From Amycolatopsis sp. FBCC-B4732 (GTDB lineage Bacteria > Actinomycetota > Actinomycetes > Mycobacteriales > Pseudonocardiaceae): a stretch of DNA of 64,000 bases. The position numbers and the translations under genes are program-made. The stretch lies in assembly GCF_023008405.1 (NCBI RefSeq), contig NZ_CP095376.1, positions 62,001 to 126,000 of the forward strand, in the 5' to 3' direction. Below the pieces are notes generated by a model. The model saw nothing but the letters and a program-made list of their open reading frames with translations. It was not told where the DNA came from and made no database searches. Of the stretch, positions 6,989 to 50,500 are shown piece by piece (the first letter of the stretch is position 1; each line of letters opens with the position of its first letter).

Positions 6989-7585
6989 ATGGGTGAACGT
7001 GGACGGCTACGGCTGCATCCGGGTGAGGTGCCGGTGCCCGCGCCGGGTGCCGAAGAACTGCTCGGGCGGGTGGCGGTGGGGGACGAGATGGCGTTCTCGG
7101 CGCTCTACGACCTGATCGCCGGCCCGGTGCTCGGGCTGGTGACGCGCGTGCTGCGCAACCACGCGCAAGCCGAGGAAGTGGCTCAGGAGGTTCTGGTGGA
7201 GGTGTGGCGCAAGGCCGCGAGGTACGTCCCGGAGCGCGGGAGCGCGCTTTCGTGGGTGCTGACGATCGCGCACCGCCGGGCCGTGGACCGCGTGCGTTCG
7301 CACCAGGCCGTGCTCGACCGCGAGGACCGGGCGGGCCGGATGGACGTGCGGCGGCCGTTCGACGAGGTCACCGAGTCCACTTTGGCCGGTCTGGACCAGC
7401 AGCGGGTGCGGCAGTGCCTGTCCGCGCTCACCGACCTGCAGCGCGAGTCGATCGTGCTCGCCTACTACAACGGCTACACCTACCCCGAAGTCGCCGAGGT
7501 GCTGAAGGTGGCGCCGGGAACCGTGAAGACCCGGATCCGCGACGGCCTGATCCGGCTGCGTGACTGCCTGGGGGTGGACCGATGA
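6989..7585 (+). CDS. sigK: ECF RNA polymerase sigma factor, SigK-like
   Basis: 198-aa ECF sigma factor. Region 2 runs about residues 22-100 (VAVGDEMAFSALYDLIAG through AEEVAQEVLVEVWRKAARY to AHRRAVDRVR) and region 4 about 135-195 (LTDLQRESIVLAYYNGYTYP, VAPGTVKTRIRDGLIRLRDC). Called SigK-like because it is followed by an RskA-type anti-sigma factor, an oxidoreductase and a fasciclin protein, as in mycobacterial SigK regulons. The ATG at 6989 follows GGAGG (6974-6978); a longer frame from 6860 lacks a ribosome site and family similarity. Overlaps the anti-sigma gene by ATGA, so the pair is made together. Confidence 0.85.
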   Translation: MGERGRLRLHPGEVPVPAPGAEELLGRVAVGDEMAFSALYDLIAGPVLGLVTRVLRNHAQAEEVAQEVLVEVWRKAARYVPERGSALSWVLTIAHRRAVDRVRSHQAVLDREDRAGRMDVRRPFDEVTESTLAGLDQQRVRQCLSALTDLQRESIVLAYYNGYTYPEVAEVLKVAPGTVKTRIRDGLIRLRDCLGVDR

Positions 7586-46291: not shown

Positions 46292-47251
46292 TCAGCTCGC
46301 CCGGATGACCCCCAGGCCCAGCGGCGTGATCTCGTGGATCTGCGACTTGCCCGACCGCGCGCTCGTGATCAGCCCGCTCGCCCGCAGGATCGACGCGTGC
46401 TGGCTCGCCGTGGCCAGCGAAATCCCCGTCAGCTCCGCCAGCTCGCTGGTGTTGCAGCGCGTGATCGCGACCGTCATCAGCACCCGCGCCCGCGTGTGGC
46501 CCAGCAGCGCCGCCAGTGACGGGCCCGGCTCCGCGTCGCTGTCGAAGCGCGTGTGGCTGATCGAATAGACCAGCACCGGGGGCAGGCCCGGGTCCTTGTA
46601 CGTCGTCGGCATGCCGTGCGCGAAGAACGTCGGGATCAGCCGGAGGCCGCGGCCGTCCAGGTGCAGTTCCTGCTCGATCGGGAAGCGGACGCGCAGCACC
46701 GGCGGGGTCCACGTGATGTCCGGGTGCAACGTCGACAGCAGCAGCTGCGGGCCGCCGCGGTCCAGGCCGGACTGCAGGCGGCGGCGGTCGCGGGCGACCG
46801 CGCGGCGCACCGCCGGCCAGTCCGGGGCCACGCACTGGCGGTAGTAGTCGTGCAGGGCCGTGCCCAGGCGCCGCAGTTCGGCGGGTTCGCCCTCGCCGAG
46901 GCGCCGCAGCCACGGCGGCACGCGGGTGCCCTGCGCCGCCAGCTCGGCGACGTCGGCGGCCAGCACCGGGGACGTCGTTTCGAGCACCGTCGAGACGCCT
47001 TCGCCGATGGTGCGGGCGCCGGCCGGGGTGAGGAAGTCGGGGCAGTAGCCGTACGGCGGGACCGCCGACATGAGCAGCCGGCCGGACTCGGGGACTGCGG
47101 AGCGTGATCCCCGGCGCCACCGGCCGAACAGCGGTTCGCCTTCGGGACGCCGGATCCGGTAGCTGCTCATCAGCAGCTCCCACATCGGGTCGGCGTCCTC
47201 GGCGATGGTCACCCGCGCCAGGTCCGCTTCCGTGAAGTGAATTTTCAACAA
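46292..47251 (-). CDS. ArsR-type winged-helix regulator with N-terminal DUF5937-like domain
   Basis: 319-aa regulator. Long N-terminal effector-like domain (MLKIHFTEADLARVTIAEDA, SYRIRRPEGEPLFGRWRRG, TLHPDITWTPPVLRVRFPIE) and a C-terminal ArsR winged helix about residues 245-310 (LLGHTRARVLMTVAITRCNT, ELTGISLATASQHASILRAS, GLITSARSGKSQIHEITPLG). This layout is typical of a Streptomyces/Amycolatopsis group of ArsR regulators. TTG at 47251 is chosen because relatives start MLxIHF. No metal-binding cysteines of classical ArsR. Target unknown. Confidence 0.85.
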   Translation of the reverse strand: MLKIHFTEADLARVTIAEDADPMWELLMSSYRIRRPEGEPLFGRWRRGSRSAVPESGRLLMSAVPPYGYCPDFLTPAGARTIGEGVSTVLETTSPVLAADVAELAAQGTRVPPWLRRLGEGEPAELRRLGTALHDYYRQCVAPDWPAVRRAVARDRRRLQSGLDRGGPQLLLSTLHPDITWTPPVLRVRFPIEQELHLDGRGLRLIPTFFAHGMPTTYKDPGLPPVLVYSISHTRFDSDAEPGPSLAALLGHTRARVLMTVAITRCNTSELAELTGISLATASQHASILRASGLITSARSGKSQIHEITPLGLGVIRAS

Positions 47252-47353: not shown

Positions 47354-47377
47354 ACGTTTCGGGCTGGCGCGAAACGT
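47354..47377. promoter_or_regulatory. Inverted repeat in the divergent region upstream of the AfsR-like gene
   Basis: ACGTTTCG (47354-47361) and CGAAACGT (47370-47377) are perfect 8-bp arms around an 8-base centre. TTGACG follows at 47389-47394. The rest of the 324-bp region 47252-47575 holds the leader ORF below and nothing else I can support. Confidence 0.4.
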
Positions 47378-47522
47378 TTTCGAGCCGGTTGACGCTGCTC
47401 GCGCGCCGCTGGCACGTTCGGCTCGACGAGAGTGTCTTCACCCGGCCGGGGGACGACGTGGTGACGATCTGAACACTTTCCGTCACTGGGGCTGAACTTT
47501 ACTGGGGAAGGCGGACGCCCGC

Positions 47523-47579
47523 ATGACGAACGACGCACGCAGAGCGCGGTTCCTCCGGCGCGCCGGAGGACGCCGATGA
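47523..47579 (+). CDS. 18-codon leader ORF translationally coupled to the AfsR-like regulator
   Basis: ATG 47523 to TGA 47577-47579, a very basic short peptide (MTNDARRARFLRRAGG...). Its stop overlaps the ATG of the large regulator as ATGA, and GGAAGG lies upstream at 47507-47512. The ORF contains the perfect 20-bp palindrome at 47551-47570. The small size means coding is inferred from the overlap, not from conservation. Confidence 0.45.
   Translation: MTNDARRARFLRRAGGRR
47551..47570 (+). promoter_or_regulatory. Palindrome hiding the ribosome site of the AfsR-like gene
   Basis: TCCTCCGGCGCGCCGGAGGA is a perfect 20-bp palindrome. Its right end GGAGGA (47565-47570) is the ribosome binding site of the regulator, five bases before its ATG at 47576; its left end TCCTCC is an exact anti-ribosome-site. 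In mRNA the site would be sequestered unless ribosomes translating the leader ORF melt the stem. Confidence 0.65.
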
Positions 47580-50500
47580 CGGCCGACGAAGTCTCGTACC
47601 GGTCCGTGCCGGTGCGAACCCGGCCGGCGCCCGTGCTGACGCTCCCGGCCTTCACGGACCTCAAGTACCGCCTGCTCGGGCCGGTGTCGGCGGTCGGCGT
47701 CGACGGGCCCGCCCGGCTCGGCGGCCCGAAGCAGCGGACCGTCCTGGCCGCGTTGCTGCTCAACGCCAACCAGGTCGTCTCGGAAGACCAGCTGATCGAA
47801 CTGCTGTGGGAAGACCGCCCGCCGGCCAGCGCGCGCGGGCAGCTGCAGGTGCGCGTCTGGGAGCTGCGCAAACTGCTCGGCCGCGAGGTGATCGTGCGCC
47901 GCGAACCGGGGTACCTGATCGAGGTCGGGCCCGGCGAACTGGACACCGAGCTCTTCGACGACGTCGCCAAGGACGCGCGGCGGCTGATCGAGAGCGGGGA
48001 GCCGCGCCGGGGCGTCGAACGCCTGCGCGCGGTCCTGGAGCTGTGGCAGGGGCCGCCGCTGGGCGGGGTCACCGACGTGCTCGTCCGGCGCAGCGGCCAG
48101 CTCCTGGCCGAGCAGCGGATGAGCGCGCTCGAGACGCTCTTCGACGCCGAACTCACCACCGGACGGCACACGCACGTCGTGCGGGAGCTGCGCCACTTCG
48201 TCGACGAATACCCCTTCGGCGAGCGGCTGCAGGAGCAGCTGATGCTCGCGCTGCAGCGGTCCGGCCGGACGCCGGAAGCGCTGGAGGTCTACACCGCGAC
48301 CCGCGAGCGCCTCGACGCCGAGCTGGGCGTCGAACCCGGCGAGCGGCTGCGGGCGATGCACCTGCAGGTGCTCAAGGGCGAGGGCGACGAGCCGCCCGAG
48401 CCGCCGGCGCCGGTGGGCGAGGTCGTCGTCCCGGCCCGGCCCGCCGAACTGCCCCGAGACGTCCGGGGCTTCGCCGGGCGGACCGAACAGCTGGCGCAGC
48501 TGGACCGCCAGCTCGCCGCGCGCGCCGGCTCCTACGCGTCGGACGTCTGGCTCGTGCACGGCATCCCCGGCGTCGGGAAGACCGCGCTCGCGCTGCACTG
48601 GGCCCACCGCGTGCGCGAGCGGTTCCCGGACGGGCAGCTGTACGTCAACCTGCGCGGGTTCGACGCCGACCGCGAGCCGATGGAGCCGGCGGTCGCGCTG
48701 GCCCAGCTGCTGCGCGCGCTCGGCGCCGACCCGCGGCGGATCCCGGAGGAGGTCGACGCGCAGGCCGGGCTCTACCGGTCGCTGCTCGCCGACCGCCAGG
48801 TGCTGCTCGTGCTCGACAACGTCCGCGACGCCGAGCAGGTCCTGCCGCTGCTGCCGCCGACCGGGACGGTGCTGGTCACCAGCCGTCACCGGCTCGGCAG
48901 GCTGGTCGCCGAGTACGGCGCGTTCTCCCTCGGCCTCGGCGCGCTGACCGAGGCCGACTCGCGGGCGTTGCTCGGCGGCGTGCTCGGCGAAGGCCGGGTG
49001 GCGGCCGAGCCGGCGGCGGCCGGGGAGCTGGCCGAGCTGTGCGGGCACCTGCCGCTGGCGCTGCGGATCGCCGCCGCGAACATCGCGACCGGCCCGGACA
49101 CCACGGTCGCCGCGATGGCCGCGGACCTAGCCAAGGGCGACCGGCTCAAGCAGCTCGTCGTGGACGGGGCGGAGGAGAGCGCCGTGACGCGGGCGTTCGC
49201 CGTCTCCTACGAGGCGCTCGCCCCGGAGCTGCGGCGGCTGTTCCGGCTGCTCGGCCTGGCTTCGTGCGCCGACTTCACCGCCCGCGGCGCCGCGGCGCTC
49301 ACCGGCGACCCGGTCGACACGGTGGCGCGGCAGCTGCGGCTGCTGGCCGCGGCACACCTGGTCGAACAGCACGTGGCCGGGCGCTACCGGCTGCACGACC
49401 TGCTGCGGGCGTACGCGCTGCGGCAGGCCGGGGCGCACGAAGCCCCGGCGGCGCGGGCCCGGGCGTGGCGCCGGTTCGTCGAGCTGTACCTCTCCGGCGC
49501 GGACGCGGCCGAACGGATCTTCGGCAGACGGCACGACCCGCGGCTGCCGCGCGAGCCCGCCGTGGTGCCGGCGAACCCCCTCTCCTTCGCCGACTCCGCC
49601 GAGGCCGCGGCCTGGCTCGACGCCGAGCACGAGAACCTCTGCGCCGTCGTCACGCAGGCGGTCACCGACGGGCCGTACCCGATCGCCTGGTACCTCGCCG
49701 ACGCCGTGCGCTCGGCGTTCTACCACCGGGGACGGCGGGTCGAGTGGGTCGACATCGCGACCACGGTCCTGGCCGCCGCGCGCCGCCTCGACGTGCCCGC
49801 GGTGGAAGCGGTCACCGCGCAGAGCATCGGCCTGGCGTTCGTCCACCGGGAACGGCACGAGCAGGCCGTCGAGTGGATGACCGAGGCGCTGCGCGTGTTC
49901 GAGCGCGTGGACTGGCCCGAGGGCAAGGCCGCCGCGCTCAACGCGTCCGCCATCGCGCTGCGGGTCGCCGGCCGGTTCGAGGAGGCGGCTTCGCAGTTCG
50001 AGCTGGCGCTGGAGCTGCAGCGGCAGTCCGGCTACCGGCTGGGCCAGGTGAGCGTGCTGAACAACCTGGCTTCGGTGCACCGGCAGCGCTGCCTGCTCGA
50101 CGCGGCCCGCGCGTGCCTCGACGAGGCGCTGGAGCTCGCGGTCGCCGAGGGCTACCAGCTGGGGGAGGCGGTGGTGCTCGTCGGGATCGGCGTCGTCCAG
50201 CGGCTGCAAGGTGACCTGCCGGGCGCGCGGCGGTCGCTGACCCGGGCGTTCGACCTGCACAAGGCGCACTCCCACCCGTACGGCCAGGGTTCGGCGCTGT
50301 GCGGGCTGAGCCTGGTGTCGATCGACCTCGGCGAGTTCGAGCAGGGCCGCGCGCAAGCCGTGCAGGGGCTGGAGATCGCGCGTCAGGAACAGAACCGCGA
50401 GACCGAAGTGGGCGCGCTCAACGCGCTGGCCAGGGCGGAGGCGGCGCTGGGGGAGACGTGCTCGGCGGTCCGCCACCAGCAGGAGGCGGTCGCGGTGGCC

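Follow-up and report, generated by a model that had tools for sequence, protein, structure and literature searches.

An occluded ribosome site and an arginine-rich leader frame suggest translational coupling of an AfsR-like regulator in Amycolatopsis

AfsR-type proteins steer antibiotic production in actinomycetes, and the locus described here raises the question of what governs the translation of one of their relatives. In a 64,000-nucleotide stretch of DNA from Amycolatopsis sp. FBCC-B4732 (contig NZ_CP095376.1, positions 62,001 to 126,000; referred to as the window), the gene for a large regulator is preceded by an 18-codon frame and by a palindrome that covers its ribosome site (Table 1). 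A first-pass annotation had read this layout as translational attenuation, with the supply of charged tRNA as a possible signal. If a leader cistron does gate a regulator of the AfsR type, this would add a post-transcriptional layer of control, and an engineering handle, in an antibiotic-producing genus.

Table 1. Features at the regulator locus (positions are those of the window).
Feature	Position	Strand	Remarks
Inverted repeat CGTTTCG-N8-CGAAACG	47355..47376	+	upstream of the -35 hexamer; candidate activator or operator site
Predicted SigA-type promoter TTGACG - 18 nt - CACGTT	47389..47418	+	-10 hexamer preceded by TGG; from the alignment of copies
5'-UTR hairpin	47428..47480	+	P1 47428-47436/47472-47480; P2 47438-47442/47460-47464; loop CGGCCGGGG 47443-47451
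Candidate leader ribosome site AAGGCGG	47508..47514	+	8 nt before the ATG; identical in 5 orthologues; recurs before other genes
Arg-rich leader frame	47523..47579	+	18 codons; stop overlaps the regulator start; open in 5/5 Amycolatopsis species
Perfect 20-bp palindrome	47551..47570		as RNA, 8-bp stem and 4-nt loop hiding the ribosome site
Regulator ribosome site GGAGG	47565..47569	+	kept in 4/5 species; GGCGG in the fifth
AfsR-like regulator, 1072 aa	47576..50794	+	Trans_reg_C, BTAD, NB-ARC/AAA and TPR domains

Translation of the regulator gene gives the annotated length of 1072 amino acids. The closest solved structures are those of AfsR (E 1.4e-102; PDB 8k60, 8jke), and the domain order is of the same type as in AfsR of Streptomyces; however, with 497.9 bits the protein stays far below the equivalog cut-off of NCBIfam NF053617 (1430), and AfsR proper was rejected as its identity. 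By sequence comparison it is a relative of AfsR, AfsR-like in its domains, and not AfsR itself. A link to bldA had been considered; the regulator gene contains no TTA codon.

The anatomy that the first-pass annotation had described is borne out by direct reading of the DNA. The leader frame, MTNDARRARFLRRAGGRR, runs from its ATG to a TGA that shares bases with the ATG of the regulator (ATGA), and seven of its 18 codons specify Arg. The palindrome, TCCTCCGGCGCGCCGGAGGA, is perfect and holds the GGAGG in its right arm, 6 nt before the start codon. How often such elements occur by chance was gauged in 464 kb of the same genome, consisting of the window and 20 further stretches. Perfect palindromes of at least 20 bp number 15 in this sample, this one included, and three of them lie within the window; the sequence itself is single in the genome, even when up to two mismatches are allowed. 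An ATG-led overlap frame of at least 10 codons precedes 10 of 50 NTGA starts; the leader is the shortest of these ten, and setting it aside leaves 9 of 49. The ATGA overlap and the palindrome are thus each unremarkable alone, and it is their combination that is rare. Both frequencies speak for a reading in which an unused frame and an accidental palindrome arose in GC-rich DNA and the regulator starts independently of them. The Arg content argues against such a coincidence, since only one of 221 ATG frames of 16 to 20 codons, the leader, contains at least seven Arg codons; none of the other 220 equals it, and two reach six. Within the leader, the Arg codons are scattered before, through and behind the stem; codons 12, 13, 17 and 18 fall within or next to the palindrome, which partly dictates them. 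Codon 7 is AGA, a triplet used 0.58 times per 1000 codons in the genome sample.

A comparison set of 122 gene-like starts with a Shine-Dalgarno site, drawn from our own crude gene calls and including the regulator, gives a further argument against chance. The regulator start ranks first both in the predicted stability of the 30 nt upstream of it (-19.9 kcal/mol; next, -17.2) and in the closure of its ribosome site, where the mean unpaired probability is 0.0001 against a median of 0.40. The fold of positions 47500-47600, proposed in the first-pass annotation, showed that these 101 nt fold no better than their shuffles (z +0.70); nor does the predicted transcript in full (z -0.14). In the 101-nt and 216-nt folds a single strong stem covers the ribosome site, and we noticed no conserved competing stem. 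None of the eight base pairs shows a compensatory change between species; six pairs are invariant, and the two variable ones are broken in some species. Stem cells are paired in 90% of cases, and in 37.5-62.5% when the partner strand is slid, but shuffles reach the observed value 304 out of 500 times. The ordinary folding energy and the lack of covariation fit a chance origin. The second most stable upstream stretch among the 122 (-17.2 kcal/mol) belongs to a crudely called gene at locus L177 (start at 7548), which also has an ATG-led frame, of 26 codons, ending in an overlap; occlusion and overlap frame may therefore go together elsewhere too.

A DNA search of 80 Amycolatopsis genomes located the locus in five species (the window, G005, G003, G073 and G068); Amycolatopsis eburnea, whose regulator shares 96% protein identity with that of the window, is identical to G068 over 1600 nt around the start, and the two were counted once. 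The orthologues satisfy the expectations of the first-pass annotation in part. Leader length, (A/G)TGA overlap, all seven Arg and the AGA at codon 7 are kept in five of five species, and the overlap persists in G003, where it reads GTGA because the regulator starts with GTG, a point against chance. Because the five species are about 95% alike, this conservation says little. Eight leader sites carry substitutions (three at first, two at second and three at third codon positions; five nonsynonymous, three synonymous), and they give no sign of selection on the leader peptide. In four species the regulator's ribosome site is predicted to be closed (mean unpaired probability at most 0.01). G068 departs from this pattern: GGCGG replaces GGAGG, one mismatch breaks the stem, the local fold differs (-14.6 kcal/mol versus -17.4 to -19.9 in the others), and the ribosome site is 0.14-0.20 open. 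At the head of the leader, the AUG is predicted to be 0.53-0.77 open across the species, and the AAGGCGG only 0.09-0.31.

In Lentzea the arrangement is missing. The regulator orthologues of Lentzea nigeriaca and Lentzea waywayandensis (82% identity), whose 330 nt are also present in two further genomes, have neither leader nor palindrome and are preceded by other frames. With the leader in five of five Amycolatopsis species and in neither Lentzea species, leader and stem are an Amycolatopsis arrangement and not a general property of this regulator. A scan of 67 loci that allowed up to four mismatches found the palindrome at a regulator start in the window clade only; its further matches were a copy elsewhere in the window clade (TCAGCCGGCGCGCCGGACTA) and one in L052. 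The loss of GGAGG and stem in one of five species and the bare Lentzea loci again favor an accidental origin of the frame and the palindrome, which, weighed against the extreme occlusion, the conserved overlap and the unusual Arg content, we consider unlikely overall, albeit a reading that carries some weight.

We infer instead that translation of the regulator is coupled, unconditionally and by a known principle, to that of the leader cistron, and we put the probability of this at about 0.6, despite the stem without compensatory changes, the open site of G068, the partly closed AAGGCGG, the 9 of 49 chance frames and the Lentzea loci without a leader. Transcription from the predicted promoter would give a message whose 5' UTR, about 100 nt long, opens with a small hairpin. 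Ribosomes would initiate at the leader ATG, translate the 18 codons and melt the stem that buries the GGAGG; every base of this stem belongs to the leader frame, so that ordinary translation would open it. They would then terminate at the TGA within the ATGA and either reinitiate at the regulator ATG or leave the site to a new 30S subunit, so that regulator output would be tied to leader translation. The occlusion of the regulator's site that this mechanism presupposes whenever the leader is not being read is found in the predicted folds, the mutated site of G068 being somewhat more open.

Bicistronic designs likewise place a second ribosome site inside the leader frame and join the two frames by a stop-start overlap. 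The leader cassettes of this type (PMC5995908) share with our locus a short leader frame before the target gene; they are engineered, whereas the Amycolatopsis leader is natural and Arg-rich. Among gene pairs with stop-start overlaps, 13 of 14 that were tested showed strict coupling, and the same study describes how translation of the upstream frame opens an occluding structure (Huber 2019; PMC6728339). The overlap, the Shine-Dalgarno sequence within the upstream frame and the structure opened by translation are common to those pairs and the present locus; the upstream frame here is an 18-codon leader rather than a full gene, and the coupling is predicted. Short frames coupled by overlapping codons have also been proposed in Mycobacterium tuberculosis, hence in an actinobacterium as here, again with the stop overlapping the next start; the excerpt of that paper at hand mentions no occluding stem, which the Amycolatopsis leader has (PMC11133741).

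Under translational attenuation, ribosomes stalling at the leader Arg codons, through low levels of charged tRNA-Arg or a nascent-chain effect, would switch the stem and thereby set regulator output. The Arg density, the retention of all seven Arg in five species and the rare AGA at codon 7 suit this idea; the geometry does not. Given customary ribosome footprint sizes, a stall at codon 7 would get no further than the foot of a stem that lies within the frame, and a ribosome halted at codons 17-18 would cover the ribosome site itself, while four of the Arg codons owe their identity in part to the palindrome. Attenuation in the strict sense requires that a stall alter the outcome and that a second stem compete with the first; neither is seen here, the 101-nt and 216-nt folds containing the one strong stem. 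The toiL uORF of Escherichia coli topAI provides an instructive contrast: there too, translation of a short upstream frame governs a structure that covers a ribosome site, as proposed here, and toiL is reported to work by stalling under antibiotics, whereas no such stall signal or second structure is evident for the leader (PMC12121999). Leader frame, buried site and overlap of the original proposal thus stand and make dependence on the leader likely, and attenuation as such finds no support. A charged-tRNA signal is not upheld either, with the stem inside the frame, an unsuitable stall geometry, no compensatory change and the GGAGG lost in one of five species; arginine-sensing attenuation is unproven and poorly fitted by the geometry. 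We rate attenuation in either form as highly improbable.

The palindrome might alternatively be a DNA site, for instance for a dimeric regulator, with its position over the ribosome site being incidental. Its perfect, even symmetry, its singularity in the genome and an inner 18 bp that is still symmetric in two of the four other species would suit a protein target. On the other hand, none of these four species retains the symmetry over all 20 bp, two of them having lost it inside the arms, and some 130 bp separate the palindrome from the predicted -10 hexamer upstream of it. We regard a DNA site of this kind as very unlikely.

Coupling through the leader cistron presupposes that the leader is transcribed. 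Scans for sigma-70 promoters and terminators returned nothing, and a candidate promoter became visible only by comparing copies, its -10 hexamer being a poor match to TATAAT. The other copies in the genus came from a DNA search with the intergenic region, and 28 copies were aligned. TTGAC of the -35 hexamer is present in 28 of 28 (L058 lacks one base at the sixth -35 column), as are the second A and the last T of the -10 hexamer, the three bases between these varying; GG precedes the -10 hexamer in all 28 copies and TGG in 27, and TTCG and AAAC of the upstream inverted repeat are invariant. As the copies were gathered by similarity, this conservation stems partly from their selection, and the variable interior of the -10 hexamer is the informative part. 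As judged from the alignment, the pattern is the signature of a SigA-type promoter with a TGN extension. A sequence-only model built from the 28 copies gave 36 matches in 23 of the 80 genus genomes (E up to 4.7e-8; next match at 2.1e-4), namely the 28 and eight more, two of these partial; a single match falls in the window's genome. Across 297 family genomes from 46 genera the model matched two genera, the second of which (g30, in 8 genomes) is taken to be Lentzea because its genomes G327 and G305 match the Lentzea loci. The predicted transcription start, at about 47422-47425, would place the leader within the transcript; it does not lie downstream of 47555, where the first-pass annotation had seen its layout contradicted. 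Counted from the assumed start, the distance between promoter and leader is 101-102 nt in each of the five species.

The predicted transcript opens with a hairpin formed by P1 (GAGAGUGUC and its partner at 47472-47480) and P2 (UCACC/GGUGA), with the loop motif CGGCYGGGG. Its conservation was assessed in a MAFFT alignment (A4) made without reference to structure. Of 31 loci tried, 30 could be placed (L131 could not) and 20 entered the alignment; L069 was omitted as a near-duplicate of the window, and L081, L089, L090, L087, L093, L084, L092, L129 and L130 because the hairpin is truncated, absent, different or off-target, while L077 and L091, which look shifted against the other rows, were included in the count without correction. 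Hairpin cells are paired in 84.4% of cases, compared with 80.2% in shuffles (none of 500 as high) and 37-50% when the partner is slid, and double-sided changes occur in 11 cells versus 3.6 (0/500); relatedness among the copies can inflate these comparisons with shuffles. Pairs with a double change number five, a count also attained by 21 of 500 shuffles and surpassed when the partner is slid by +1 (six). On most measures, then, the helix appears to covary across the 20 copies. RNAalifold alone finds six P1 pairs, three of them with double changes, at only -2.4 kcal/mol. L129, outside the alignment, lacks P2 but retains P1, in which one more pair has changed on both sides (U-A to C-G).

The minimum free energy fold of the window's predicted transcript includes P1 and P2; P1 forms in only two of five orthologues' 70-nt folds (L071, L072). 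Folded singly, the 5' UTRs have a mean z of about -1.0, and 4 of 30 fall below -2, a set that includes copies without the hairpin and the off-target row L130; folding energy alone does not prove the hairpin. Rfam yielded only a minus-strand match below cut-off in the window between 47200 and 47700 (RF01333, E 0.82) and nothing at gathering threshold for the hairpin at five other loci. A structure model of the hairpin (R2) found 26 matches in 20 of the 80 genus genomes (E up to 0.001), of which L206 in G030 was rejected, as it has no promoter pattern upstream and its hairpin is terminator-like. At four loci of the second genus, R2 gave only weak matches in L181 (best E 0.09) and none at E up to 10 in L179, L180 and L182; in L180 and L182 the search pattern was off-target, and their downstream genes were not used.

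The leader start itself sits in a second recurring block (GGGGAAGGCGGA...ATG). By our own reading, an ATG or GTG occupies the same place in 10 of 13 non-orthologous copies, is one base off in one and absent in two; L201 has a similar block without a start. The frames that begin there vary in length (10 to 39 codons) and sequence. In L076 a 22-codon frame closes with a GTGA that overlaps the start of the peptidase gene, and in L042 no stop interrupts the 200 codons read, the frame continuing in phase into a BTAD regulator; the remaining frames, as read, stop short of the gene. In part of the family, the ATG of the block may thus be the start of the downstream protein, or be descended from one.

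The genes behind the copies encode, among others, BTAD regulators, secreted M15 peptidases, a HAMP-domain membrane protein, a small secreted protein and a membrane protein without a Pfam match ("secreted" and "membrane" being our own reading of the sequences). Pfam likewise has no match for the small secreted protein (representative L202; L129 is the same place). A tentative and less probable reading is that these loci form an undescribed Amycolatopsis transcript family, in which a shared promoter, inverted repeat and covarying hairpin, often with a frame at a fixed place, stand before diverse genes and one signal acts on all of them, the frame having been turned into a coupling device in the window clade. 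The L042 frame, running into its regulator, weakens the short-leader reading for the family as a whole and makes a shared transcript family somewhat less likely. Were the promoter-hairpin cassette a shared regulon, an unknown Amycolatopsis signal would become testable via one sequence. In open-access papers we found nothing on the leader or on this promoter-hairpin family; coupling through a leader is a known kind of mechanism, and the family upstream is the more unusual, novel part.

Several copies show further variation. L179 and L181 (g30) have the promoter element in front of genes for secreted M15-type peptidases as well, and retain GGCYGGGG without a good match to the hairpin model. In L129, L195 and L202 promoter and hairpin lead straight into the small secreted protein, without a short frame. 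At L092 (G083), the same promoter element has upstream of it a relative of the divergent ArsR-like gene that the window carries at 46292-47251; downstream of the element, the place of the regulator is taken by a membrane protein resembling the HAMP protein of L115. In L093, L084 and L092, which precede a HAMP-type membrane protein, GGCTGGGG sits within a loop closed by another stem (GGACC/GGTCC or GGGCC/GGCCT).
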